Translations under genes and position numbers: made by a program
From: Bacteroidetes Order II. bacterium
GTDB lineage: Bacteria; Bacteroidota; Rhodothermia; Rhodothermales; UBA2364
Reading direction: 5' to 3'
Assembly (NCBI GenBank): GCA_016788705.1
Contig: JAEUSQ010000021.1
Location: 62,001 to 126,000, forward strand
Length of the DNA: 64,000 bases
The notes under the pieces: model-generated
What the model saw: only the letters and a program-made list of their open reading frames with translations
Databases searched by the model: none
Told to the model about the DNA's origin: nothing
Shown: in pieces, positions 9,073-62,115 of the stretch
Layout: the number at the start of each line of letters is the position of its first letter
Numbering within the stretch: position 1 is the first letter of the stretch

Positions 9073-9501
9073 ATGAAAAGCATCATTAAAACCTTCTTAG
9101 GCACGGTCTTGATCGCCGGAACCATCTTGTTGGTAAACGCAGACGATGCACAAGCACAAATGATCAAACGGAAAGCAAAATCTATTCCGGAAGATTGTAA
9201 AGAAGACATCCGTGACCGAAGAGAAGACCGACGCGACCGCGCAGAAGACCGGCGCGACCGTAAAGAAGACATCCGAGATCGGCGCGAAGACATCCGCGAC
9301 CGAAGAGAAGACCGACGGGATGCCCGGCATAACGGCGGACTTAAAGACCGGCTTGAAGACATTCGTGACCGACGTGAAGACCGGAGAGATCGTGCAGAAG
9401 ACCGACGTGACCGTAAAGAAGACATCCAAGATTGGCGCGAAGACATCCGCGACCGGAAAGAAGACCGACGCGACCGCAGAACCGGGCCATGCAAAGGCTA
9501 A
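9073..9501 (+). CDS. Secreted low-complexity protein with EDxRDRR repeats
   Basis: 142 residues. A signal peptide (MKSIIKTFLGTVLIAGTILL, cleaved after AQAQ) is followed by about 100 residues built from repeats of the type EDRRDRA, EDRRDRK, EDIRDRR. The block is interrupted once by the linker DARHNGGLKDRL and then repeats nearly unchanged, so the array is itself duplicated. Composition is almost only Arg, Asp, Glu, Lys and Ile, and would form a long alternating-charge helix. One Cys lies before the array (EDCKED) and one at the end (GPCKG). Similar charged-repeat exported proteins are seen in Bacteroidota without known function. It ends at a strong terminator. Confidence 0.85.
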   Translation: MKSIIKTFLGTVLIAGTILLVNADDAQAQMIKRKAKSIPEDCKEDIRDRREDRRDRAEDRRDRKEDIRDRREDIRDRREDRRDARHNGGLKDRLEDIRDRREDRRDRAEDRRDRKEDIQDWREDIRDRKEDRRDRRTGPCKG

Positions 9502-45644: not shown

Positions 45645-45851
45645 TTACATTAAAAAGTACACATCCCTTGTTTACTTTTTGATCTCATTCCGATACTGCG
45701 TTTCAATCTTGGCATTCCGAGGCTTTGTTTTGTGTAGGTATTGGGACGCGAGCCCTTTTGGAACGGATTTTTCTTTGTATCTAGAAAGGTGGCATACCGT
45801 TTGTTATCGGATAAGAACGTTAAATACCCAAACCTCATACGGTTGTTTGTA

Positions 45852-47423
45852 ATGGAAAAACAAAGTATCTACGCGCCCAAAATTATTACCGGCATCAATG
45901 TGATTGACGAAGCTTGGGGCGGTTTGTATCGGGGTGGTTCCTACCTCCTCTATGGACAAGCATGGACAGGTCGTAGTCTAATGAACCTGCAATTTGCGTT
46001 CACGGGGGTGAAGCAAAAAGAGCGCTGTCTCTATATTTTCCCCGAACGCCCCCGCGATCTCATCATTCAGGCCGCTTCTATAAACTTCGACCTGAGAGGG
46101 GCCGTAGAGGATGGTTTGGTTAAACTGATGCGGATTCCGCCGTCGTTCAAACCAAATGAACTGACGGATGAGGAACTCCACAAGGCCATTACGGATTTGG
46201 TTCAGGTGGTGGCACAGGAAAATCCGGATCGGTTGATTATTGACAACTTCAGCCGCTTTGCACAATTCAAGTCTTTCGCGGCATTCCAGGATGCCTTCAT
46301 AGACATGCTTGAACGCATTGAATTGGTGGACACAACGCTTTTGTTTGCTCTCGGCGAACCAGCCAATGACAATGCCCGTAATGTCATCGAGTTCATTGCT
46401 CGCCAAGTAACGGGTTGTATTCATGTGGCCCTCGACCAAGAAGAGCCGACTTCCTCTCGCCGTTTATTGACGATTATCCCCAATATCGGGCACCTCGAAG
46501 GACCTGTTGCAGATTATTGGGATTTGGCAGAAACGGTCTCGGAAAACGAACGTTATCTTTTGGAGCAGTCGGCCCTACAACAATCCTTTGAAGAACCAGA
46601 GCCGGAAGTACCGCAACCAGTAGTGGTGGAAGAACCCGTTGCTGCTCCCGAGCCGGAAGTGATTGTACCAGTGGTTCCTGCTGAACCCGAGCCTCCGGCT
46701 CCTGAACCTGCATTGGGCCAGCCATTCATTTTACCGACCATGCAGACACCGCGTCGGTTGTCGGAATTACCGCGTCGTTTTGGCAGTTCTGCCCGAATGC
46801 CAGCGTATGCGCCTACCAATCATGTTGTAACTCCACCACCCGTTCCGGTACAAAAACCAGAACCGATTTTGGTGACGGCACCACCGCCAGCCATAACCCA
46901 TACTCCGGTTATTCCGACGCCCTTGGCCAATCCCCTGCCTTCCTTCGAGAACCTAAGCAGTTTGCGACAGGAGGAGGAAGCCCTTGTGGAAGACGTGTTG
47001 CAGCATGAAGTTCGCGACTATACAGACCGGGCAGCATTTCAGCAAGTTCTGGAGCATCAATTCCGTTTGCGCGACCAAAATGGGCATTCTTTCCTCCTAA
47101 TCGCCATGCGCATGGATCGTGGAGAGGGCAAAAAAGTTCGTCCATTTGATTTTGAATTTATTCTGGACTTGGTAACAGATGCGCTACGCAATACCGATAG
47201 CATGCTTGTGAATCACGACCGCGAGCGCTTGGTGATGCTGCGCACGAATATCGGGGCGGAAGAGTCTCAGTCCTTCTTCACTGAACTGATGGGCCAACTC
47301 CGAAAAGAGGCGCCTCAGCAGGCAGAGCACTTGCTCCGTTCCGTATCCGCCATTGTGGTTCCAGATGGCAAACCTTTTAAAACGGCAGAAGAATTCTTGG
47401 CCTACGCCATGGATCGGCCCTAA
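45852..47423 (+). CDS. KaiC/RecA-like ATPase fused to a GGDEF-like domain
   Basis: 523 residues from ATG 45852 (MEKQSIYAPKIITGINVIDE). Residues 1-230 are a KaiC-type RecA fold: TGINVIDEAWGGLYRGGSYL, a Walker A-like loop at 35-42 (GQAWTGRS, with Arg for Lys), RCLYIFPERPRDLIIQA, and Walker B-like DRLIIDNFSRF near 135-145. A Pro/Glu/Val-rich linker follows (about 235-385). The last 130 residues look like a GGDEF-type fold (DRAAFQQVLEHQFRLRDQNG; FLLIAMRMDRGE; NHDRERLVMLRTN) but the GGDEF motif is absent. KaiC-like proteins often act as ATP-driven regulators. Upstream of the exopolysaccharide genes, 28 bp from the next; a regulatory role there is inference. Confidence 0.7.
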   Translation: MEKQSIYAPKIITGINVIDEAWGGLYRGGSYLLYGQAWTGRSLMNLQFAFTGVKQKERCLYIFPERPRDLIIQAASINFDLRGAVEDGLVKLMRIPPSFKPNELTDEELHKAITDLVQVVAQENPDRLIIDNFSRFAQFKSFAAFQDAFIDMLERIELVDTTLLFALGEPANDNARNVIEFIARQVTGCIHVALDQEEPTSSRRLLTIIPNIGHLEGPVADYWDLAETVSENERYLLEQSALQQSFEEPEPEVPQPVVVEEPVAAPEPEVIVPVVPAEPEPPAPEPALGQPFILPTMQTPRRLSELPRRFGSSARMPAYAPTNHVVTPPPVPVQKPEPILVTAPPPAITHTPVIPTPLANPLPSFENLSSLRQEEEALVEDVLQHEVRDYTDRAAFQQVLEHQFRLRDQNGHSFLLIAMRMDRGEGKKVRPFDFEFILDLVTDALRNTDSMLVNHDRERLVMLRTNIGAEESQSFFTELMGQLRKEAPQQAEHLLRSVSAIVVPDGKPFKTAEEFLAYAMDRP

Positions 47424-47451
47424 ACTCACCGCTCATTTCGCTTCATCCGCT

Positions 47452-49938
47452 ATGAAAAAGTTGCGATATACCTTCCTTGTTGTGATTGCATTGCTCCTGT
47501 GCAATCCGGTTGCCGATTCGGTTCTGGCCCAACAACGCACCACAGATACCGCCTCCGCCTCCGATCCTCTCGAACAAGCCCGGCAATTTATCCGAAAAAA
47601 ACGATATGCCGATGCCTACGACCTGCTCCAATCGGTGCGGGAACAATATGGCAACCAGCACGAGTGGATGCGTCTCACCATAGAGGCCGACGACTACTTT
47701 GTTCGCGCGAAGGGACGTTCGCTGCTTTTCCCAATAGACCGCCTCACCTACAAAGTGCGGGTGACGCCTAATGACAGCAAAACCCGCTACGAATTGGTAG
47801 ATGCCTTGATGCAGGCTGGTCGGTTTTATGAAGCCGAAGAGTTCTTGGAAGGGCAACGCTATGTAAATGCGCAAGACCCAGAGTACCTCCGTCGGAAAAA
47901 TGACATGGCTTCCCGTAAAGCAAGCCTAACAGCACAAAAAATTGCCCAGCTTCAATCTAAGGCCAATGCTAATCCCAGAGACGGACAAGCACTGCGGGAA
48001 TTGGCCTACTTCCAAGCGGTAAGTGGGAACCGCGATGCTGCAATCACGACCTATCAACGGGCCCTTACGGTGAGCAGTGATCCCGAATTGCGGTTTGAAT
48101 ATGCAGACTTATTGATGTCTATGGAGAAGTATGACATGGCGCTACCAGAAGTGGAAGCATTGATTGCGGCGCGGCCCTCCAGTTTGAAGTACAAAAATCT
48201 ATATGCTTCTATCACATTATTTAGTGGCAAAGTTACTGACCGTACCGAGCAATACCTGAACGAGTCCCTTCAACGAGAGTCTTGTAATGTGGATATTCTT
48301 GCCAACATGTCGCTCCTCAAGGTGTATCAGGGCAAACTCGACGAGGCCGACCAGTATGCACGTCGGGCGCAAACCTGTGTAGGCTCCGGCTTTAATGGCC
48401 GCCTAGAACAATTAGATGCCCTAATTGCCGAAAGTAAGCGCACGGGACGTGTGGGTTTCGGGGCCGCTGCACGATATAGTGCAGACTTGGAGCGGGCACG
48501 GCAGTTGTATCGCGAACAAAAATACTTTGATGCCGCAGATGCTTTCGAGATGTACTTCCGCAAAGGTGGCCCGGTTAAAAAAGAAATCCTTGCAGAAATG
48601 GCGAATGCCATTGCAGACGGCGGAGACCCCGAATCGGCCATTGGGGTACTACAACGGGCCTTGGTTGAAGAATATGACCAAGCATTGGTACTGCGCGTTG
48701 CCCAGCTACGCTACGACATGAATGACTTTGCGGGAACGATTGCCGTTTTGGAAGAATTGATGGACCGTGGTCATAAAAGTACAGGGGCTTACCGCTTATT
48801 GGGGGATGCGTATGCAAAAGCCCGATGGTTTGGGAAGTCTCGTGAAGCCTACAATATGGCCTTGGCACTTTCGCCGGATGACCCAGATTTACGCCAGCGC
48901 ATCACATGGGCCACACCGGGCGTTGGCAAAAGTGGATCTTATAATTATGCCGCTCTGCTGATTCCTTTTGTACGTGGTATCAGCGCCAAGGGCTTTGAAA
49001 CGAACTACGATGCTCTTGCGATGGGGGTCAGTTCTCAGATCACACTCCCGATTCCGGTAGTTCTGACCGCAGGTTTTACTTCGGGCGGAAACAAAGGGAC
49101 GGCCTTCCAGTCGCGGCCAGGTATCAGCGATCCTGTGAAAAATCCTGACGGGGATAAGCCTTTAGGTTATGGTGATACGTGGTACAACCAAGTCTCTCTT
49201 GGGGCTTTTATTGACCTTACCAAGCCGGAGCCTTATCGTTTTTATGGACATAACTATACCAATCGTATTGCAGCAGAAGGTGGTATTGTGGATTATGCAG
49301 GTGGTCGGACGGCACCTTTTGGGGCACTCCGTTATTATCACCAAACAAAAAATGTTTTTCGTCTATCACTGGGAGCAGAACGTCAGGAAGGTGCAACTGC
49401 GCTTTGGTCTCCGGCGGGCGCCCAAAATGAGTTGGTATTAAACCAAATTGGTGGCGACTTGGGTACGCCATATGGCCAGAAGTTACTATTTAATGCTTCT
49501 TATCATTACAATGTGGTAAAAGACAAGTTTGGCGAAAACAAAGGTATGTCTATTGGTGGCGATTTGGGATATAAGACCTTTCGCAACTCATGGATTGGGG
49601 CCAGCTACTATACCATCAACTACGATAATAAGGTGAACTTCTATTTTTCGCCCACAAATTGGTCGTACCAAGAAGTTATGGCATGGCTCTTGCATGAACG
49701 AGAGATGGCGGAAAAGTATTACCTCCGCTTTAAAGTAGGACCGGGGATGTTGTTAAATAACGACTTTGCCTTCGGACGTGGCGAATTGGATGTTATCTAT
49801 AAGTTTGCTCCGAATATTGGAATTGGCCTGATGGGGCGTATTACCCAGTCTTTCCGCTATCGAAATAAACTGGAAACAAACCCATATAATACCTATCAGA
49901 TTTTGGTAGGCGGTGTTAATTTCTATTGGACACTCTGA
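47452..49938 (+). CDS. TPR plus outer-membrane beta-barrel protein (PgaA/BcsC-like)
   Basis: 828 residues from ATG 47452. Signal peptide (MKKLRYTFLVVIALLLCNPV, cleaved after VLAQ). Residues about 40-480 are TPR-like helix pairs (for example DPLEQARQFIRKKRYADAYD; LRELAYFQAVSGNRDAAITT; YRLLGDAYAKARWFGKSREA). From about 505 the chain turns into alternating beta strands rich in aromatic and Gly residues ending in FYWTL (a C-terminal aromatic typical of outer-membrane barrels). This two-part plan is that of the polysaccharide exporters PgaA and BcsC, where TPRs guide the glycan to the pore. Gene order next to the synthase supports it. Confidence 0.82.
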   Translation: MKKLRYTFLVVIALLLCNPVADSVLAQQRTTDTASASDPLEQARQFIRKKRYADAYDLLQSVREQYGNQHEWMRLTIEADDYFVRAKGRSLLFPIDRLTYKVRVTPNDSKTRYELVDALMQAGRFYEAEEFLEGQRYVNAQDPEYLRRKNDMASRKASLTAQKIAQLQSKANANPRDGQALRELAYFQAVSGNRDAAITTYQRALTVSSDPELRFEYADLLMSMEKYDMALPEVEALIAARPSSLKYKNLYASITLFSGKVTDRTEQYLNESLQRESCNVDILANMSLLKVYQGKLDEADQYARRAQTCVGSGFNGRLEQLDALIAESKRTGRVGFGAAARYSADLERARQLYREQKYFDAADAFEMYFRKGGPVKKEILAEMANAIADGGDPESAIGVLQRALVEEYDQALVLRVAQLRYDMNDFAGTIAVLEELMDRGHKSTGAYRLLGDAYAKARWFGKSREAYNMALALSPDDPDLRQRITWATPGVGKSGSYNYAALLIPFVRGISAKGFETNYDALAMGVSSQITLPIPVVLTAGFTSGGNKGTAFQSRPGISDPVKNPDGDKPLGYGDTWYNQVSLGAFIDLTKPEPYRFYGHNYTNRIAAEGGIVDYAGGRTAPFGALRYYHQTKNVFRLSLGAERQEGATALWSPAGAQNELVLNQIGGDLGTPYGQKLLFNASYHYNVVKDKFGENKGMSIGGDLGYKTFRNSWIGASYYTINYDNKVNFYFSPTNWSYQEVMAWLLHEREMAEKYYLRFKVGPGMLLNNDFAFGRGELDVIYKFAPNIGIGLMGRITQSFRYRNKLETNPYNTYQILVGGVNFYWTL

Positions 49939-49988
49939 GGCGTGGGTCTTCAGGGCCTCCCCTGCCATTAAGTTCAAAATCGAAACCA

Positions 49989-50015
49989 GGCAGACCCTTA
50001 AAGTCTGCCTTTTTT
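49989..50015 (+). terminator. Terminator or attenuator inside the exopolysaccharide locus
   Basis: Perfect stem ggcagac / gtctgcc with a 7-base loop followed by six T, between the barrel gene and the glycosyltransferase gene, 19 bp before the synthase ATG. As it stands it would cut expression of the synthase unless read through. Confidence 0.82.
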
Positions 50016-50033
50016 ATTCCACCGCAAGATCAG

Positions 50034-51503
50034 ATGAAACCACCATCCTCCGAAAAGCCTTTATCTCCGAAGCGTCCTCCCGGTCCACCGCCGGAGTTGG
50101 TCTATACGGCTTTTGATCCATTGGTGGTTCCGCAATACGAACCCCTTAAGCCTGAGCGGCCTTCTGTATGGTGGTTTGGGTTTATGGTATTAGCCTTGGT
50201 CGTGGTGGTGGTGGTTCTATTTTTGTTGATTCAGAATCCTATCTTACCTGTTTTGGGGTATCGGTTGTTTGCCGATCAAGCAGTGCTCACTTGGTCTGGC
50301 TTGGTCGTACAGGCATCTACATATGTGTTGGTGGTTTTTTTGTTGGTTGTAGTGGCGCGTTATGCTTTTCAGATGCTGTTTGCGCTGCTCTATATGATCC
50401 GCTATACGTTCCGATACGGTCAAAAGCGAAGTACCTTTATGCCACCCATTTCAGTAGTGGTGCCCGCCTATAACGAAGAAAAACTCATCCGCCAAACCCT
50501 ACTTTCATTGTTATCGCTGGATTATCCCGAATATGAAGTCATCATTGTGGATGATGGGTCGCGAGACAATACTGCCCGAATCGTAGAACGTGTCTTGGGA
50601 AAACACGGAAATGCGACACTGCGGCTTGTTACAAAACCAAATGGCGGAAAAGCTTCGGCCCTGAATGCCGGAATACAGGTTGCGAAGTATGATTTTGTCC
50701 TCTGTGCAGACGGCGATTCCAATCTTGCACCAGAGACCCTACGCATGGCCATCCGACATATGGAGGATCCTAAAATTGGGGCTGTAGCCGGAAATGTTAA
50801 AGTCCTAAACCGCAATACATGGTGGACTACTTTTCAGGCGTTGGAATATGTGGAAGGGTTAAACCTGACCCGAACGGCCCAAAGTTTTTTTAAGCTAGTA
50901 AACATCGTACCTGGTCCGGTTGGACTTTTCCGGAAAGCCACCATCGAAAAAGTAGGCTGGTATAGTTCCGACACTTTTGCCGAAGACTGCGACATCACCC
51001 TGAAGATGTTACGACAGGGTTGGCGAGTGGTTTATGAGCCAATGGCCATTTCTTGGACGGAAGCGCCCAATACCATTTCCTCCCTCATGAAGCAACGTTA
51101 TCGCTGGACACGGGGTATCCTGCAAGCGATTCGCAAAAACCGTCATCAGAAATGGTCTAATTTTGGTGCATGGTTGCAAATGTGGTTGGTGATCTTCGAG
51201 GCTTTTGTCTGGCCATTCGCGAATGTATTTGCAACGGTCTATTTTATCTATGTGGCGTTTGCCTATAGCATTGCCTATTATTTGCTCTATTGGTGGTTGG
51301 GTCTCACTTTGTTGGATATGGCGATGGCCCTTTGTGCCGTTGCAGCCGAGAAGGAAGAGATTCGGCTGGTATGGTATGCTATTTTTTATCGCATCTTCTT
51401 CGTGTTGGTGATAGATATTTGTAAAATATTAGCAACCATCGAGGAGCTATTGGGTATTCGGATGGGATGGGGCAAATTGGAACGCATTGGTGCCCGCTTA
51501 TAG
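50034..51503 (+). CDS. Processive family 2 glycosyltransferase (PgaC/IcaA-like)
   Basis: 489 residues from ATG 50034. Two N-terminal transmembrane helices (about 46-68 and 88-122) precede the GT2 domain: first Asp motif VDDGSRDN (D173-D174), DGDS (D226, D228), the TED-like AEDCD (D318, D320) with the base, and QRYRW (354-358), the mark of processive synthases. About four helices follow (380-470). This D,D,D,QxxRW set is shared by PgaC/IcaA (poly-beta-1,6-GlcNAc), cellulose, hyaluronan and NodC synthases; overall length fits PgaC best. There is no PilZ domain, unlike BcsA. A Pro-rich N-terminal tail of 45 residues is unusual. The sugar cannot be read from the sequence. Confidence 0.88.
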   Translation: MKPPSSEKPLSPKRPPGPPPELVYTAFDPLVVPQYEPLKPERPSVWWFGFMVLALVVVVVVLFLLIQNPILPVLGYRLFADQAVLTWSGLVVQASTYVLVVFLLVVVARYAFQMLFALLYMIRYTFRYGQKRSTFMPPISVVVPAYNEEKLIRQTLLSLLSLDYPEYEVIIVDDGSRDNTARIVERVLGKHGNATLRLVTKPNGGKASALNAGIQVAKYDFVLCADGDSNLAPETLRMAIRHMEDPKIGAVAGNVKVLNRNTWWTTFQALEYVEGLNLTRTAQSFFKLVNIVPGPVGLFRKATIEKVGWYSSDTFAEDCDITLKMLRQGWRVVYEPMAISWTEAPNTISSLMKQRYRWTRGILQAIRKNRHQKWSNFGAWLQMWLVIFEAFVWPFANVFATVYFIYVAFAYSIAYYLLYWWLGLTLLDMAMALCAVAAEKEEIRLVWYAIFYRIFFVLVIDICKILATIEELLGIRMGWGKLERIGARL

Positions 51504-51848
51504 GGTTTTGGCGCATGCACTGTCTGGCATTTTCGGGTATTCTGGAAAGGGATATATTCACCATGAATCACCATTTTAGGAGGATGTTTGATACCTACTT
51601 AAAAAAACACGGTGAATATTGGGTTTTGGGCACACTGTTTGCAATTTAAGAACTATACGTTCCAAACATGTACGAGGGCGTCCTTTAATACAAAGATGAC
51701 CGCAATGTATGTGACGTAAAAAGTTATATTCATAAAACTTAAATCGCCTTTAGCCTGTTTTTGACGGAACCAAAAAACGGATTGGCGATACATAAAAAAT
51801 GGAACAACGGTTCTTGCGTGTGCCCACCATTCAATCTGTTTTACTGCT
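51504..51848. other. Gap between glycosyltransferase and Pro-rich membrane protein
   Basis: 345 bp with no credible gene on either strand and no clear terminator. A short minus-strand frame near 51660-51733 has a hydrophobic product (MNITFYVTYIAVIFVLKD) but no other support. Confidence 0.4.
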
Positions 51849-52832
51849 ATGGAAGCCCAAAGTCTGACAATCATTACGACCATTATTCTGGTACTGATGC
51901 TGGGAACACTGATTTTCAGTTTTGTACAGTACTGGCTCCACCGTATCCGCGAGCGTCAGGCGCGCAAAGATGAAGAGGCACTTCGTCAGATTGGGCCTCC
52001 CAAGCCCTATGTACTGACCGAAGCCGCAACGACGACTACGGTGAAACCAACCGTTCCACCGCCCGTTCCGGTTACGCCCAAGGCCATTACGAAGACGCTG
52101 CACAAAGCCCTCGCTTCTCAAAACGAGCACCCAACAACCGAGACACCCGTACCCAAAAAAGAGAAAACACCTTTCACCGTCACCATGTTGGAGCCTCCAA
52201 CTGGAGAGCGTAAGGCTACAGAAACGCCCGTTTCCGAAAACATTCCTCGCGAGCCTGTTTCAGAAACAATGGTTGGAGAGATGCCGGAAAATAAACAGCC
52301 TGAAATTAAAGAAAAAATGGGGCTATCCAGCAGTAAAACAGAACTCGGCGAGCATACAGCAGACAAAAAGGAAAGCATAACCGCACCTCAGGAAACATCG
52401 GTATCGGAGATAAGGAACATCCCTCAAGTAATGTTGCCAGATATGCCTACAACGGAACGGAGCATAGACGAGGTCTTTACGCCGCCTGTTTTAAGTGTGA
52501 GTCCAGAGCCGCAGACCGGAGACGGCGTTTATTCAGGCGGCGACTCGGCGGGCAGTTTGCATGCATTTGAAGATCTGGTAGGGCCAGAACCCTTGGTATT
52601 GGAATCTATTGGTTTATCGGATGTTCAGGATGTTTCTCCGTTAATACCGTCCAATAACCTTCTCTTTATGGTTCCAGTAGAGCTTTCTGCCATGCGGCCA
52701 CGTATGACCATTACGCGACCTGTACCTAAGAAAAAGACGACACCGCCTCCTGCTAAGCCTCAACCGATGCCCCATACTCCCCCGCCTCCATCTATACCTC
52801 CGCGTCGGGATGAAAAGCCTGAATGGAACTGA
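51849..52832 (+). CDS. Membrane-anchored Pro/Glu/Thr-rich protein
   Basis: 327 residues. One transmembrane helix at about 7-29 (LTIITTIILVLMLGTLIFSF) is followed by a basic patch (HRIRERQARKDEEA) and a long low-complexity, Pro/Thr/Glu-rich domain ending in Pro-rich runs (PPRRDEKPEWN). No fold is recognised. It sits 20 bp upstream of the NodB-like protein, so they are surely coexpressed. It may span the periplasm or scaffold the synthase, an inference from context only. Confidence 0.72.
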   Translation: MEAQSLTIITTIILVLMLGTLIFSFVQYWLHRIRERQARKDEEALRQIGPPKPYVLTEAATTTTVKPTVPPPVPVTPKAITKTLHKALASQNEHPTTETPVPKKEKTPFTVTMLEPPTGERKATETPVSENIPREPVSETMVGEMPENKQPEIKEKMGLSSSKTELGEHTADKKESITAPQETSVSEIRNIPQVMLPDMPTTERSIDEVFTPPVLSVSPEPQTGDGVYSGGDSAGSLHAFEDLVGPEPLVLESIGLSDVQDVSPLIPSNNLLFMVPVELSAMRPRMTITRPVPKKKTTPPPAKPQPMPHTPPPPSIPPRRDEKPEWN

Positions 52833-52852
52833 AATTGTAGATCATTTGCCCT

Positions 52853-55132
52853 ATGCTGTATCGCCCTGCACGCATCAATTTGTTGTGGTTGGTTTTGTTC
52901 TCGCTTTTTTTTGTGATTGCAGGCGGTTTTGTTTTTTTTCAGTTGATTGAAAGTACCATTGGAGGGCCATCGGACCTGAAAAGGCTGCTCCCAGTGCGGC
53001 GCCCACCTCTACGTGTAGCCATTCTCAAAAGCGACTATACAGCACAGGTTCATAATATCCTTCAATTTAATGGTTCTGGTCTTCGGTGGCGCGATACCAC
53101 GGTTGCCCAATGGCAACACCTGCTTCAGATACGCAACCAAGGGGCTTATCCGCTTACGGATGAGAACATTGAAGACGGACAATTGATGGATAAGGAGGGA
53201 AACCCAAGATGGGAAATGCTGATCTTGCCTTCGGTGCGGGCATTGAGCGATAATGAGGCCGCACAAATCAGGCGTTTCATGAACAATGGTGGAACGGTGG
53301 TGGCAACTTGGGCGCTGGGTTTGTATAAGCCAGATGGTTCTTGGCGTGGCTGGGGGTTTATGGAAGACTTGTTTGGCATCAATATTTCGGGGTTTGTTGC
53401 GCCGGGTGCGGCAAGTCATCGGGTGACGCAGGAAATGATTTCCGGACGGACTAAGCCCGGTTTATACCTGAAATCTGTGGATGCAATAATTTTTCCGAAT
53501 GCACAAAGCACCTCTTTGAAAGAATTGGATGGTTATAAATGGGTTTCGTCTCAACTGCCTGATGGACTGGCAAAAGACTATGTGGTTGCAGATACCTTTA
53601 CCTCGGTACAAGTCAATAATAAAGGTAAACGCACGCGCATTCCATCAGTCTCGGTTACGCGCTATGAATGGGCGGGTGGAAATCCAGCAAAGCCTCGTAT
53701 TTTGCCTGGTTCCGAGAAAGGTTTTCGTAATTTTACCGTCCGGCCAGAAACGCCAGTAACCCACGGTATTCCCGCAGGTTATCGCATTCGGGTGGGGACC
53801 TATGACCGCCCCATTATGTTTCGGTCGGTGCGAAAACAAACAACAATTGCCGGGTATTGGTATGACCATCAGTTGGAAGACCGTCCAGCCCGTGTTGCCA
53901 TAGAAGAATCTGCCGGAATGGTCATTGGAACCTATGGAAGCGGACGTTTTGTATATATAGGCCACGAATTGGCTGCAATGGGAGGCAAAGACAAACAACT
54001 CGGTTTTGATCCCAGAGACGCCAAAGTATTGGAGTATCTGTTCAATAACATAATAGATTGGCTTACCCGAAAACCCGTTGCCTGGGCCTCAGTCTGGCCG
54101 TTTGGGTACGAAGCAGCGGCATCCGTAATGACCATTGCCGATGACAGCCCGCTGAAGTTGTCGTATATGCAAGACGTACTTGCTGGCGAAAACGTGCGCG
54201 GAACTTATTTTTTGGATGCAAACGACCTCCGCATGCCAAAGGACTTCCTGAATAACCTCCACCAAATGGGCGATATTGGTTTGTGGGACAATGCCGAAAA
54301 TCCAAGAGCAATTCAGGCATTGTTGGGCCCTAAAAAATCTGAATTGGAAACAAAAACTTCTAAACAACCCGTCTGGGGGGTTTTTTTTCCACACATGCCG
54401 AGCTTAGGGAATTTGTCGGCTGTGCAAGAAGCGGGCTATCGTTATACCGTTTCTGCTGCGTCCGACCGGAGCCTGCAACCGATTGGCCCTGAAAAGCCTT
54501 TTGCCAAATTGGTGCAGGTGTATAAATCGGGTAGAACAGGAACCGAAACCCTGCTGGCCGGAGCACGCGGTGCGTTGGGTGTGGAAAGTGGCTTGCTCTC
54601 CGAAGCCGAGCGCATCCGGATGGATGGCGGGCTATATCCGGTTTTGTTCCGTACCTCCGACTTGGAAAACAATGGATTCCTAAGCGGCGTCCGTGGGGCC
54701 ATCAGGACGATGCAGGCGAAGCGGTTTTGGTTTGCAAGTGGCCTGCGGTTGGCCACATGGATGAATGCCCGCGAACGGGTACGCACCACTATTCGACAAA
54801 CCAGTGATGAACGATTTGTGGTACAAATCTCGAACGACTCCAACTTGGCAATAGATAGCCTCGCGTTGTACATCTGGTTGCCTCGGCCCTATGATGCCGA
54901 CAACCAGCGCATCACCATCCGGCCAGAAACCATGCGTATGGAAAACCTGATAGAGACCATGAAAGGGGTAAAAACGGAATTGGTAGCGGGTAAAGATTTT
55001 GCCATCATTAACGAAGCGAGTACCCAACTCCGCCTCCGTATCCGCCACCTGAAGCCCAATCAATACAATGTTTTTCAGGTGGATGTAACGCCCCGGAAAA
55101 TACCCCGTGTCAAGGCGTGGTGGCGGTTTTAG
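52853..55132 (+). CDS. Membrane-anchored protein with amidotransferase-like and NodB-like regions
   Basis: 759 residues. N-terminal transmembrane anchor (about 10-32). Residues 50-400 resemble DUF4350/ThuA or trehalose-utilisation-like class I amidotransferase folds (RWEMLILPSVRALSDNEAAQ, IRRFMNNGGTVVATW; GTYGSGRFVYIGHELAA). Residues about 405-640 follow the NodB polysaccharide-deacetylase pattern (AASVMTIADDSPLKLSYMQD, NVRGTYFLDAND, HQMGDIGLWDNAENP, RMDGGLYPVLF), but the H-x3-H metal ligands after the DD motif are not visible. A C-terminal beta domain follows. A degenerate counterpart of PgaB is likely by position: anchored, periplasmic, and perhaps glycan-binding or chain-guiding rather than deacetylating. 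Confidence 0.65.
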   Translation: MLYRPARINLLWLVLFSLFFVIAGGFVFFQLIESTIGGPSDLKRLLPVRRPPLRVAILKSDYTAQVHNILQFNGSGLRWRDTTVAQWQHLLQIRNQGAYPLTDENIEDGQLMDKEGNPRWEMLILPSVRALSDNEAAQIRRFMNNGGTVVATWALGLYKPDGSWRGWGFMEDLFGINISGFVAPGAASHRVTQEMISGRTKPGLYLKSVDAIIFPNAQSTSLKELDGYKWVSSQLPDGLAKDYVVADTFTSVQVNNKGKRTRIPSVSVTRYEWAGGNPAKPRILPGSEKGFRNFTVRPETPVTHGIPAGYRIRVGTYDRPIMFRSVRKQTTIAGYWYDHQLEDRPARVAIEESAGMVIGTYGSGRFVYIGHELAAMGGKDKQLGFDPRDAKVLEYLFNNIIDWLTRKPVAWASVWPFGYEAAASVMTIADDSPLKLSYMQDVLAGENVRGTYFLDANDLRMPKDFLNNLHQMGDIGLWDNAENPRAIQALLGPKKSELETKTSKQPVWGVFFPHMPSLGNLSAVQEAGYRYTVSAASDRSLQPIGPEKPFAKLVQVYKSGRTGTETLLAGARGALGVESGLLSEAERIRMDGGLYPVLFRTSDLENNGFLSGVRGAIRTMQAKRFWFASGLRLATWMNARERVRTTIRQTSDERFVVQISNDSNLAIDSLALYIWLPRPYDADNQRITIRPETMRMENLIETMKGVKTELVAGKDFAIINEASTQLRLRIRHLKPNQYNVFQVDVTPRKIPRVKAWWRF

Positions 55133-55293
55133 GTAAGTTGCTTACATGGAGTGGCTACTTTTTCCGCATGGTAATGGATCAAAAACGGCTTTGGCACGAC
55201 GATAAAGCGGGTCAAAACGTGCAGGGCCGGGCCGATACATACAGCAGACATTCCCCACCTCTGGACGTTGTATTTTGGTATTTTTCTAGGCTG

Positions 55294-55943
55294 ATGGGAA
55301 CAACAATAACCGCTAAAAATCTTGGCCACTTGGGAATGATGGCCAGCATGATAGACGAACTCGGCATAGGTAATAGATTCGGCGATTATCCAAGAGACCC
55401 GCGACCGTCACCCTATAGCAGCATGGGCTGTTAAAGTCATGATTATCAATGGTTTATGCTTTAGTCAGTGGACATTGTATATGACAAGTAAGTTCTTTGA
55501 AAACCTGCCTATTGACATACTTTTGGGGCCTAATATCTCGGCTAATCATCTAAATGACAAGGTGTTGGGGCTAAATGACAAGGTGTTGGGGCTAAATGAC
55601 AAGGTGTTGGGGCGGGCATTAGATTCGGTTTATGACTACGGTTGCACGAAATTGTATCGCGAAAGAACCTTTCATATGGGCAAAAGCTGAGCCTTGCAAG
55701 GAGATCGTGACCTTGCGTTTGAGGCGCAAACTGCGACAAAAGGTCGGTTTATCCTTGCAACAAACCACTGAGATACTGGCAAGCTACCCGACCACCAAAT
55801 GCTTGTTGAGTTCGAGTACCGGGTAACGAAGTCAGCTGAGCAAAGAGAACGAGACGCCCCCCAATCAGGTGAACAAACAAGTAAAAAACCCAACCGCCAG
55901 ATGGCTTTTCATCCTCATGACAGGCATTCATGTACTATATTAA
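55294..55943 (+). pseudogene. Decayed IS1634-family transposase
   Basis: Three fragments in order. 55294 onward reads KNLGHLGMMASMIDELGIGN, the usual N-terminus of these transposases. After a frameshift near 55415, 55427-55680 reads VKVMIINGLCF then FFENLPIDILLGPNISANHL, with a triplicated LNDKVLG before RALDSVYDYGCTKLY. From 55691 the end of the gene reads LAFEAQTATKGRFILATNH, a TGA, DTGKLPDHQMLV, then, after another frameshift, NPTARWLFILMTGIHVLY and stop at 55941. The middle of the protein (about half of the usual 550 residues) is missing. No terminal inverted repeats were identified. The flanking bases up to 56086 hold nothing I recognise. Confidence 0.75.
55550..55612. repeat. Three perfect tandem copies of a 21-bp unit
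   Basis: Copies at 55550-55570, 55571-55591 and 55592-55612 of ctaaatgacaaggtgttgggg, coding LNDKVLG three times. Intact relatives of the transposase have this segment once, before RALD. Because 21 is a multiple of three the frame is kept. Confidence 0.93.
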
Positions 55944-61131: not shown

Positions 61132-62115
61132 ATGTCTGATAACAAGTATTATTATTACGACCACGAAACCATGTCGTTCGTGGAAGCGGCTCCGGTACAG
61201 CGTAACCCTCTTCGTTGGGGTGCGATAACCGTTGGGGTGGCCACCGTTTTAATCGCCGCCGGAATTTGGCTATTTAGTGGCCTCGGAGGTGGCTCTGCGA
61301 AAGAGTATCAACTGAAGAGTGAGAACGAAGCCCTACGTGCACAATTGGGCCAGACCGAAAAACGGGTGGATGCGGTCTTTGATAAATTGGACGAACTCTA
61401 TCAAAAAGACAGTGAACTTTACCGTGTAGTCTTGCAGGTAGATCCGATCTCCAAGGATGTGCGTGATGTAGGAGTGGGCGGTACCGACACCTATGAAGCC
61501 TTCGATGGATACTCGAACGAGACAGGAGGGCTGCTACGAAGAATGAATACCACCTTAGATAAGTTGGAACGCCAAATGAACCTCCAAGGTTCTTCCTACC
61601 GGGAATTAATCACTATTGCCCGTACCAAAAATGCAGACTTGGCGCATAAACCCATTATGGTTCCGGTAGAAGGTGGACGTTTTACATCTGGATTTGGCTA
61701 CCGCATTCACCCTATTGCCCGCACCCGTAGAATGCACGAGGGGGTGGATATTGTGGTCCCCATTGGTACACCCGTCTATGCGCCTGCAAATGGAACGGTT
61801 GACTTTGCCGCCACGAAAGGTGGATATGGTCATACTGTGGTGATTAAGCATGGAGACAGTGGTTATGCGACCTTGTATGCCCACCTCTCCCGATATGTGG
61901 TTTCGTCGGGACAAACCGTAAAGCGTGGCCAACTCATTGCCTATACCGGAAATTCGGGCAGTTCAACTGGGCCTCACCTTCATTACGAAGTACAAAGTGC
62001 CGATGGACAACAAAAATTCAATCCGATGGACTTTATCGCGCCCAGTATGTCACCTGCAACCCTGAAAGAAGCCATCAAGGGCGCCGAGGGCGAATCCGCT
62101 ACTTTAGATTATTGA
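61132..62115 (+). CDS. M23 family peptidoglycan endopeptidase, membrane-anchored
   Basis: 327 residues. An N-terminal cytoplasmic tail with a Tyr run (MSDNKYYYYDHETMSF), a transmembrane helix (about 30-50), a coiled-coil segment (about 57-100), then a linker and the LytM domain (about 180-305) with FTSGFGYRIHP, the metal ligands in RRMHEGVDIVVP, and GPHLHYEV. All ligands for an active zinc peptidase are there. It is close to the MepM/YebA-like group seen across Bacteroidota, where it trims cell-wall crosslinks. A terminator follows. Confidence 0.92.
   Translation: MSDNKYYYYDHETMSFVEAAPVQRNPLRWGAITVGVATVLIAAGIWLFSGLGGGSAKEYQLKSENEALRAQLGQTEKRVDAVFDKLDELYQKDSELYRVVLQVDPISKDVRDVGVGGTDTYEAFDGYSNETGGLLRRMNTTLDKLERQMNLQGSSYRELITIARTKNADLAHKPIMVPVEGGRFTSGFGYRIHPIARTRRMHEGVDIVVPIGTPVYAPANGTVDFAATKGGYGHTVVIKHGDSGYATLYAHLSRYVVSSGQTVKRGQLIAYTGNSGSSTGPHLHYEVQSADGQQKFNPMDFIAPSMSPATLKEAIKGAEGESATLDY

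Follow-up and report, generated by a model that had tools for sequence, protein, structure and literature searches.

The 64,000-nucleotide stretch analyzed here (the window; positions 62,001 to 126,000 of contig JAEUSQ010000021.1, from a Rhodothermales bacterium) carries five consecutive plus-strand genes, g1 to g5, that probably serve the production and export of a sugar polymer and show likeness to machines of the cellulose or poly-N-acetylglucosamine (PNAG) type (Table 1). We favor, with reasonable though far from complete confidence, the reading that this block is an operon for synthase-dependent exopolysaccharide secretion, switched by sigma-54 and working without cyclic di-GMP (c-di-GMP) in its host organism. 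The reading is built on observed conservation of gene order and of promoter motifs, predicted domain folds, the loss of catalytic residues, and the absence of GGDEF and PilZ domains; from these we infer the handling of the polymer, a contact between g1 and g4, promoter activity, and the kind of product made.

In the scheme that we propose, g3 would use a nucleotide sugar to polymerize a beta-linked glycan and would then move it across the inner membrane, where the anchored pseudo-deacetylase g5 (together with a second such protein, g6, in relatives) would hold or guide the chain in the periplasm. The tetratricopeptide repeat (TPR) domain of g2 would take up the chain, and the barrel of g2 would export it. 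In the cytosol, g1 would dock onto the tail of g4 and assemble or gate the synthase complex, in the style of BcsE on BcsF, and the whole system would be switched at transcription by sigma-54 through a pair of promoters that lie upstream of g1 and of g4.

Table 1. The five genes and candidate regulatory sites of the operon, in window coordinates; the start codons of g1-g5 were adjusted using relatives and signal features
Feature	Position	Strand	Length	Description
g1	45852-47423	+	523 aa	KaiC-like plus degenerate GGDEF; proposed cytosolic assembly/control subunit
g2	47452-49938	+	828 aa	TPR plus inferred barrel; proposed exporter
g3	50034-51503	+	489 aa	PgaC-like family 2 glycosyltransferase (GT2), membrane synthase without PilZ
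g4	51849-52832	+	327 aa	Single N-terminal hydrophobic stretch; proposed BcsF-like anchor
g5	52853-55132	+	759 aa	One N-terminal transmembrane helix; GATase1-like plus NodB/CE4 fold; periplasmic
Sigma-54-type -24/-12 site TGGCATACCGTTTGTT	45790..45805	+		62 bases before g1
Sigma-54-type -24/-12 site GGGCACACTGTTTGCA	51628..51643	+		g3-g4 gap, 221 bases before g4
Terminator-like hairpin AGGCAGAC...GTCTGCCT, then T run	49988..50010	+		Between g2 and g3; terminator scan

Conservation of the gene order

An earlier note on this DNA had placed five consecutive plus-strand genes at 45852-55132, and all are present in the order that it gave, separated by gaps of 28, 95, 345, and 20 bases from g1 through g5. 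Searches of Pfam and NCBIfam assign KaiC to g1, TPR to g2, and a PgaC-like GT2 to g3, and find no family above cut-off for g4 or g5. At least six families share the order g1-g2-g3-g4-g5, with 24 complete loci among them, and the co-occurrence is therefore beyond chance. Within the window's order, 15 complete loci (the window included; families f1, f4, and f8) have all five genes on one strand, as do 9 of 9 examined loci from families f26, f44, and f50, which are placed in the same phylum and outside the window's order; this second lineage is probably Balneolales. The named records with relatives are Rhodothermales or Bacteroidota metagenome-assembled genomes. Where loci are incomplete (G009, G019, G011, L087-L090, and L093), the breaks coincide with contig ends. 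The scattering in relatives that would have spoken against a single system is not seen in any of the six families, and the suggestion that the block defines a lineage-specific polysaccharide system is supported by the keeping of its order in two lineages of the phylum.

Among 60 genomes, comprising the host's own and those of relatives, g1 is present in 32 and g5 in 12, and in a sample of the phylum g5 was detected in 51 of 394 genomes, with 2 of these matches weak, confined to the domain, and from genomes in which the operon is absent. One second-lineage genome (G199) has a tandem pair of g1-like genes heading the operon (locus L116, 14148-16265, minus strand).

The synthase and its product

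The motifs DGD, FAED, and QRYRW that characterize processive GT2 enzymes are intact in g3, and about five hydrophobic segments flank its catalytic domain on both sides. Its nearest curated family is TIGR03937 (PgaC/IcaA), ahead of NodC and CelA, at 226 bits against a cut-off of 422, and the g3 of locus L106 from the second lineage scores 211 bits against the same cut-off. The score against CelA is 70.6 bits where 699 is required, which places g3 outside the BcsA type. The window's g3 is 28% identical to E. coli PgaC, 27% to NodC, and 18% to BcsA. In a FastTree phylogeny computed on a trimmed alignment, the operon synthases of both lineages form one clade with a support of 1.0, apart from PgaC, NodC, BcsA, and NfrB. 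Judged by these comparisons, g3 is a synthase of the processive type that falls into none of the curated families; the description "PgaC-like" in the earlier note is upheld, yet at a score below the family cut-off, and the grouping with non-processive glycosyltransferases that would have counted against a system is not found. The top plasmid match to g3 is an unannotated Novosphingobium record with 37% identity.

The likeness to PgaC raises the question of whether the block is simply a PNAG-type pga variant that makes poly-GlcNAc (beta-1,6-linked N-acetylglucosamine), with g3 as the PgaC orthologue, g2 as PgaA, and g5 and g6 as decayed forms of PgaB. PgaC is indeed the best curated family for g3, and deacetylases of the PgaB class have the same NodB fold as g5. 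However, g3 lies far below the PgaC cut-off and shares little more than a quarter of its residues with the E. coli enzyme. The residues for deacetylation have disappeared from g5 and from almost every g6, whereas PNAG export in E. coli needs deacetylation by PgaB, and the operon of the second lineage is accompanied by a GH9 endoglucanase, not by a beta-1,6 hydrolase. We consider this alternative unlikely, if the one to be taken most seriously. The E. coli Pga system and the present operon have in common a PgaC-like GT2, a PgaA-like TPR-barrel protein, and a periplasmic protein of NodB fold, but here the synthase is below cut-off, a pseudo-deacetylase with a GATase-like domain stands in place of PgaB, and g1 and g4 are additional.

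For an exopolysaccharide operon of the kind that we favor, a clue to the product comes from the second lineage, where in 7 of 9 loci the gene immediately upstream of g1 encodes a GH9 protein most similar to endoglucanases. This association slightly favors a beta-1,4-glucan-like polymer over a hexosamine polymer. A GDSL acylhydrolase is encoded between g2 and g3 in three second-lineage loci, and the polymer is perhaps acylated. Directly after g5 in a congener (G002, locus L080, 17800-19446) is a GHL10 glycosidase-like gene (Pfam, 2e-69).

The exporter

The earlier note's PgaA/BcsC-like TPR-barrel exporter stands as far as the TPRs are concerned. A Sec-type signal peptide precedes TPRs that match Pfam at 4e-14 and more weakly, and the profile of g2 matches the TPRs of BcsC (9b8a) and PelB (9h80). 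The barrel is read from a conserved C-terminal region with a strand-like pattern, ending in the aromatic motif YWTL, which suggests an outer-membrane barrel. These features bear on a further alternative, that the glycan is not secreted but remains bound to the cell surface, with g2 serving as a TPR assembly platform. Such an arrangement would suit the top NCBIfam match of g2, which is PrsT of the XrtA/PEP-CTERM system, as well as a barrel assigned without sequence match to a known porin family. Systems for secreted polymers nevertheless usually pair a TPR-barrel protein with a synthase that bears processive motifs, and the TPR matches to BcsC and PelB also speak for export, so that we regard a cell-attached glycan as improbable.

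The anchored pseudo-deacetylases

The predicted structure of g5, with a mean predicted local distance difference test score (pLDDT) of 73.9, comprises a transmembrane helix, a GATase1-like domain, a CE4/NodB barrel, and a beta-rich end. The GATase1-like domain (about residues 52-407) resembles the trimerization domains of GH42 and GH164 enzymes with Z scores of 16-18. The barrel (about residues 413-643) has the CE4 fold; its match to the CE4 structure 3rxz has a Z score of 21.7 and a root-mean-square deviation of 3.1 over 233 aligned residues, and CE4 enzymes as a group are matched with Z scores of 16-22. A NodB-like anchored protein, as first described, is therefore recovered from the predicted fold and the single N-terminal transmembrane helix, while the window's g5 has no Pfam NodB match. 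The suspicion that the deacetylase is inactive is likewise borne out by alignment. The catalytic Asp pair is not conserved, none of the aligned g5 sequences has HxxxH, and all of them have lost the CE4 catalytic residues. Directly after g5, nearly all relatives in the window's order encode g6, a second g5-like protein that is absent in the window's genus; only the g6 copy of L109 retains part of the catalytic residues. As a pseudo-deacetylase, g5 would have a glycan-binding or guiding role.

A close parallel in architecture is Agd3 (CE18 plus CBM87) of Aspergillus fumigatus and its bacterial homologues, in which a GATase1-like domain, a NodB-like barrel, and a beta-rich C terminus follow in the same order, and for which the nearest folds are reported to be 3RHT, 4JQS, and 3QBU (PMC7229062); the same three come up for g5. 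Of the Agd3/CE18 catalytic motifs, the CM1 Asp pair is not conserved in g5 and the CM2 HxxxH is absent. In contrast to Agd3, then, g5 lacks catalytic residues, is membrane-anchored, and showed no sequence match to Agd3, and the described bacterial Agd3 loci differ in carrying GH114 and Pel-like parts.

Just past g5 in the window, at 55250-55680, lies a decayed, frameshifted stretch with weak similarity (15 bits, below cut-off) to the beginning of a transposase of the DUF4277 type. At 55550-55613 there are three perfect 21-base tandem repeats, at the same place where g6 is missing in the window's genus.

g1, g4, and the comparison with BcsE and BcsF

The first gene encodes a KaiC/RecA-like pseudo-ATPase (about residues 14-232), a Pro-rich linker, and a degenerate GGDEF domain (about residues 388-521). 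The KaiC domain is matched by Pfam at 1.2e-20, and in the predicted structure (pLDDT 67.7) residues 14-232 have a RecA/KaiC fold, with Z scores of 21.1 for FlaH and 18-20 for KaiC chains. The protein has a single KaiC domain where KaiC has two in tandem, and its Walker A sequence in the window, GQAWTGRS, has arginine in place of the lysine that KaiC possesses; within the window's order, the g1 proteins that belong to operons have the form GxxxxGR, and those of the second lineage a near-canonical GxxKSG(R/K)T. The strand/helix order of the modeled C-terminal domain is GGDEF-like. No GGDEF profile matched the window's g1 itself, but among 16 relatives of its C-terminal region 13 matched GGDEF_2 (best 8e-5), 7 GGDEF, and 4 PelD_GGDEF. 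At the GG(D/E)EF position the window has HDRER and relatives are variable, which sets g1 apart from diguanylate cyclases. A search of the PDB with the C-terminal profile found no GGDEF chain, and no BcsE, PelD, or GGDEF chains are among the fold matches listed for g1, which are uninformative on this point, since the RecA domain filled the list. The fusion of KaiC-like and GGDEF-like parts proposed to head the block is confirmed; the accompanying opinion that such a regulator is new in this setting has to be given up, as BcsE has a similar KaiC-like plus GGDEF-like layout (PMC7439463, PMC11470070).

The N-terminal domain of BcsE is RecA-like and has been overlaid on KaiC (PMC7439463), and the single-pass BcsF recruits the full protein, which has the layout NTPase*-REC*-GGDEF* (PMC11470070). 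The membrane-anchored Pro-rich protein of the earlier note, g4, fits its description, with one N-terminal hydrophobic stretch and a long Pro-rich tail. It has no Pfam match. It is single-pass and predicted to have its N terminus outside and its tail in the cytoplasm, and the hydrophobic helix is followed in the compared loci by a basic (K/R)IRER-type motif (KIRERRA or RIRERQ); the tails of relatives contain short motifs, among them EPHVLVAP and YTDEGFVPV, with FAWL or LKWR at the C terminus. The pair therefore resembles BcsE/BcsF in layout, with a pseudo-NTPase joined to a degenerate GGDEF domain on one side and, on the other, a single-pass anchor that has a cytosolic tail and a basic motif next to the membrane, the likeness of g4 to BcsF being one of topology and basic motif only. 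The tail of BcsF binds the N-terminal domain of BcsE by strand addition, and, by analogy, g1 and g4 might work in a similar way. That g1 is BcsE is not supported; in profile comparisons, homology between the two did not reach significance, and no BcsE family is among the Pfam and NCBIfam matches of g1.

Compared with the type II Bcs system of E. coli as a whole (BcsA/B/C/Z plus BcsE-BcsF), the operon shares a synthase, a TPR-barrel exporter, and an endoglucanase in the locus, here GH9 and in the second lineage only. It differs in its PgaC-like synthase without PilZ, its sigma-54-type promoters, its anchored GATase/pseudo-CE4 proteins, and a genome without a GGDEF enzyme, and the block contains no BcsB, BcsQ, or BcsR genes.

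Control without c-di-GMP

With positive controls in place, neither a GGDEF nor a PilZ domain was found anywhere in the host genome, which extends to the whole genome the earlier remark that PilZ is missing. Of the 12 operon-bearing genomes of the window's order, to which the GGDEF counts apply, only G029 has a GGDEF domain. It might still be argued that c-di-GMP controls the system and that g1 receives it at an I-site in its GGDEF-like domain, as BcsE and PelD do, given that the window's g1 has RNTD at the I-site position directly before the degenerate GGDEF slot and that some g1 relatives match PelD_GGDEF. This alternative we consider very improbable, since no GGDEF domain is present in the host genome or in 11 of the 12, and since some f8 members and the second lineage no longer have the arginine of RxxD. 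On these two grounds, c-di-GMP sensing by g1 was rejected as the principal explanation, and, with PilZ also absent from the genome, c-di-GMP control in the host organism is unlikely. PelD is similar in that a degenerate GGDEF domain is attached to a polysaccharide synthase system, and its profile is weakly matched by g1 relatives, but it is a membrane-bound c-di-GMP receptor, whereas g1 is soluble, is fused to a KaiC-like domain, and comes from a genome that encodes no GGDEF enzyme.

Sigma-54-type promoter motifs

Transcription offers a different route to control. The motif NGGCAY-N5-TTG, sought within 270 bases before g4 and 120 bases elsewhere, precedes g1 in 12 of 20 loci, g4 in 13 of 15, and g3 of the second lineage in 9 of 9. 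In total, 34 of the 44 starts have the motif, compared with 13 among 703 control open reading frames (ORFs). This ratio is not to be taken as a probability, because the loci share descent and the span searched before g4 is longer. Before g4 the motif lies mostly at 60-67 bases, and in 11 of 15 loci it is within 120 bases; in shuffles of the window's g3-g4 gap, the site there has a p value of 0.006. Sigma-54 is encoded in the host genome (domain, 210 bits) and in all 60 genomes. By motif, g1 and g4, and g3 in the second lineage, would lie behind candidate sigma-54-type promoters. Two congeners retain the stem of the strong g2-g3 hairpin: L080, from G002, where the loop differs, and L081. Together the motifs and hairpin suggest separately tuned transcripts. 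The earlier note mentions neither this hairpin nor the promoter motif in the 345-base g3-g4 gap.

We also considered whether the g3-g4 gap encodes a further small protein and rejected the idea, as a three-frame reading of the gaps revealed no conserved ORF. In the second lineage, the operon is followed by a PAS hybrid histidine kinase and, mostly, an fn3 protein (L106, 130-5207; L107-L112, L115, and L116); the kinase may feed a sigma-54 activator.

Weighing the proposal

Several observations count against the operon as we have drawn it. Profile homology between g1 and BcsE is not significant (hhalign probabilities of 6 and 0.3%), the g1 model lacks the REC* domain of the BcsE layout, and the g4 tails diverge strongly between the window's genus and the others. 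Homologues of g1 also stand alone in other families, where the operon is absent (L073, L074, L075, L076, and L077), and there was no synthase among the genes tested around these lone copies. The g2-g3 hairpin could split g3 off the g1-g2 transcript. Finally, the window genome has no GH9, so the hint of a beta-1,4-glucan comes from relatives only. An expanded version of the proposal, in which a BcsE/BcsF-like control module without c-di-GMP, driven by sigma-54 and with pseudo-deacetylases handling the polymer, is common to the Rhodothermales and the second lineage of the phylum, is put forward tentatively, and we hold it to be possible rather than probable.

Elsewhere in the window, at 9201-9476, are tandem repeats of 21 bases that match one another imperfectly (72 and 65%).

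Implications

No description of this operon was found in the literature on Rhodothermales and Balneolales, with most subscription papers and all preprints outside the coverage. The well-studied synthase-dependent polysaccharide systems of Gram-negative bacteria are mostly tied to c-di-GMP (PMC8461298), whereas here a degenerate GGDEF domain has been kept in the absence of GGDEF enzymes, within a conserved system whose genes lie behind sigma-54-type promoters. The operon marks a lineage-wide surface polymer, and it provides a direct test case for the role that degenerate GGDEF and KaiC-like domains play in secretion complexes after the second messenger has been lost.

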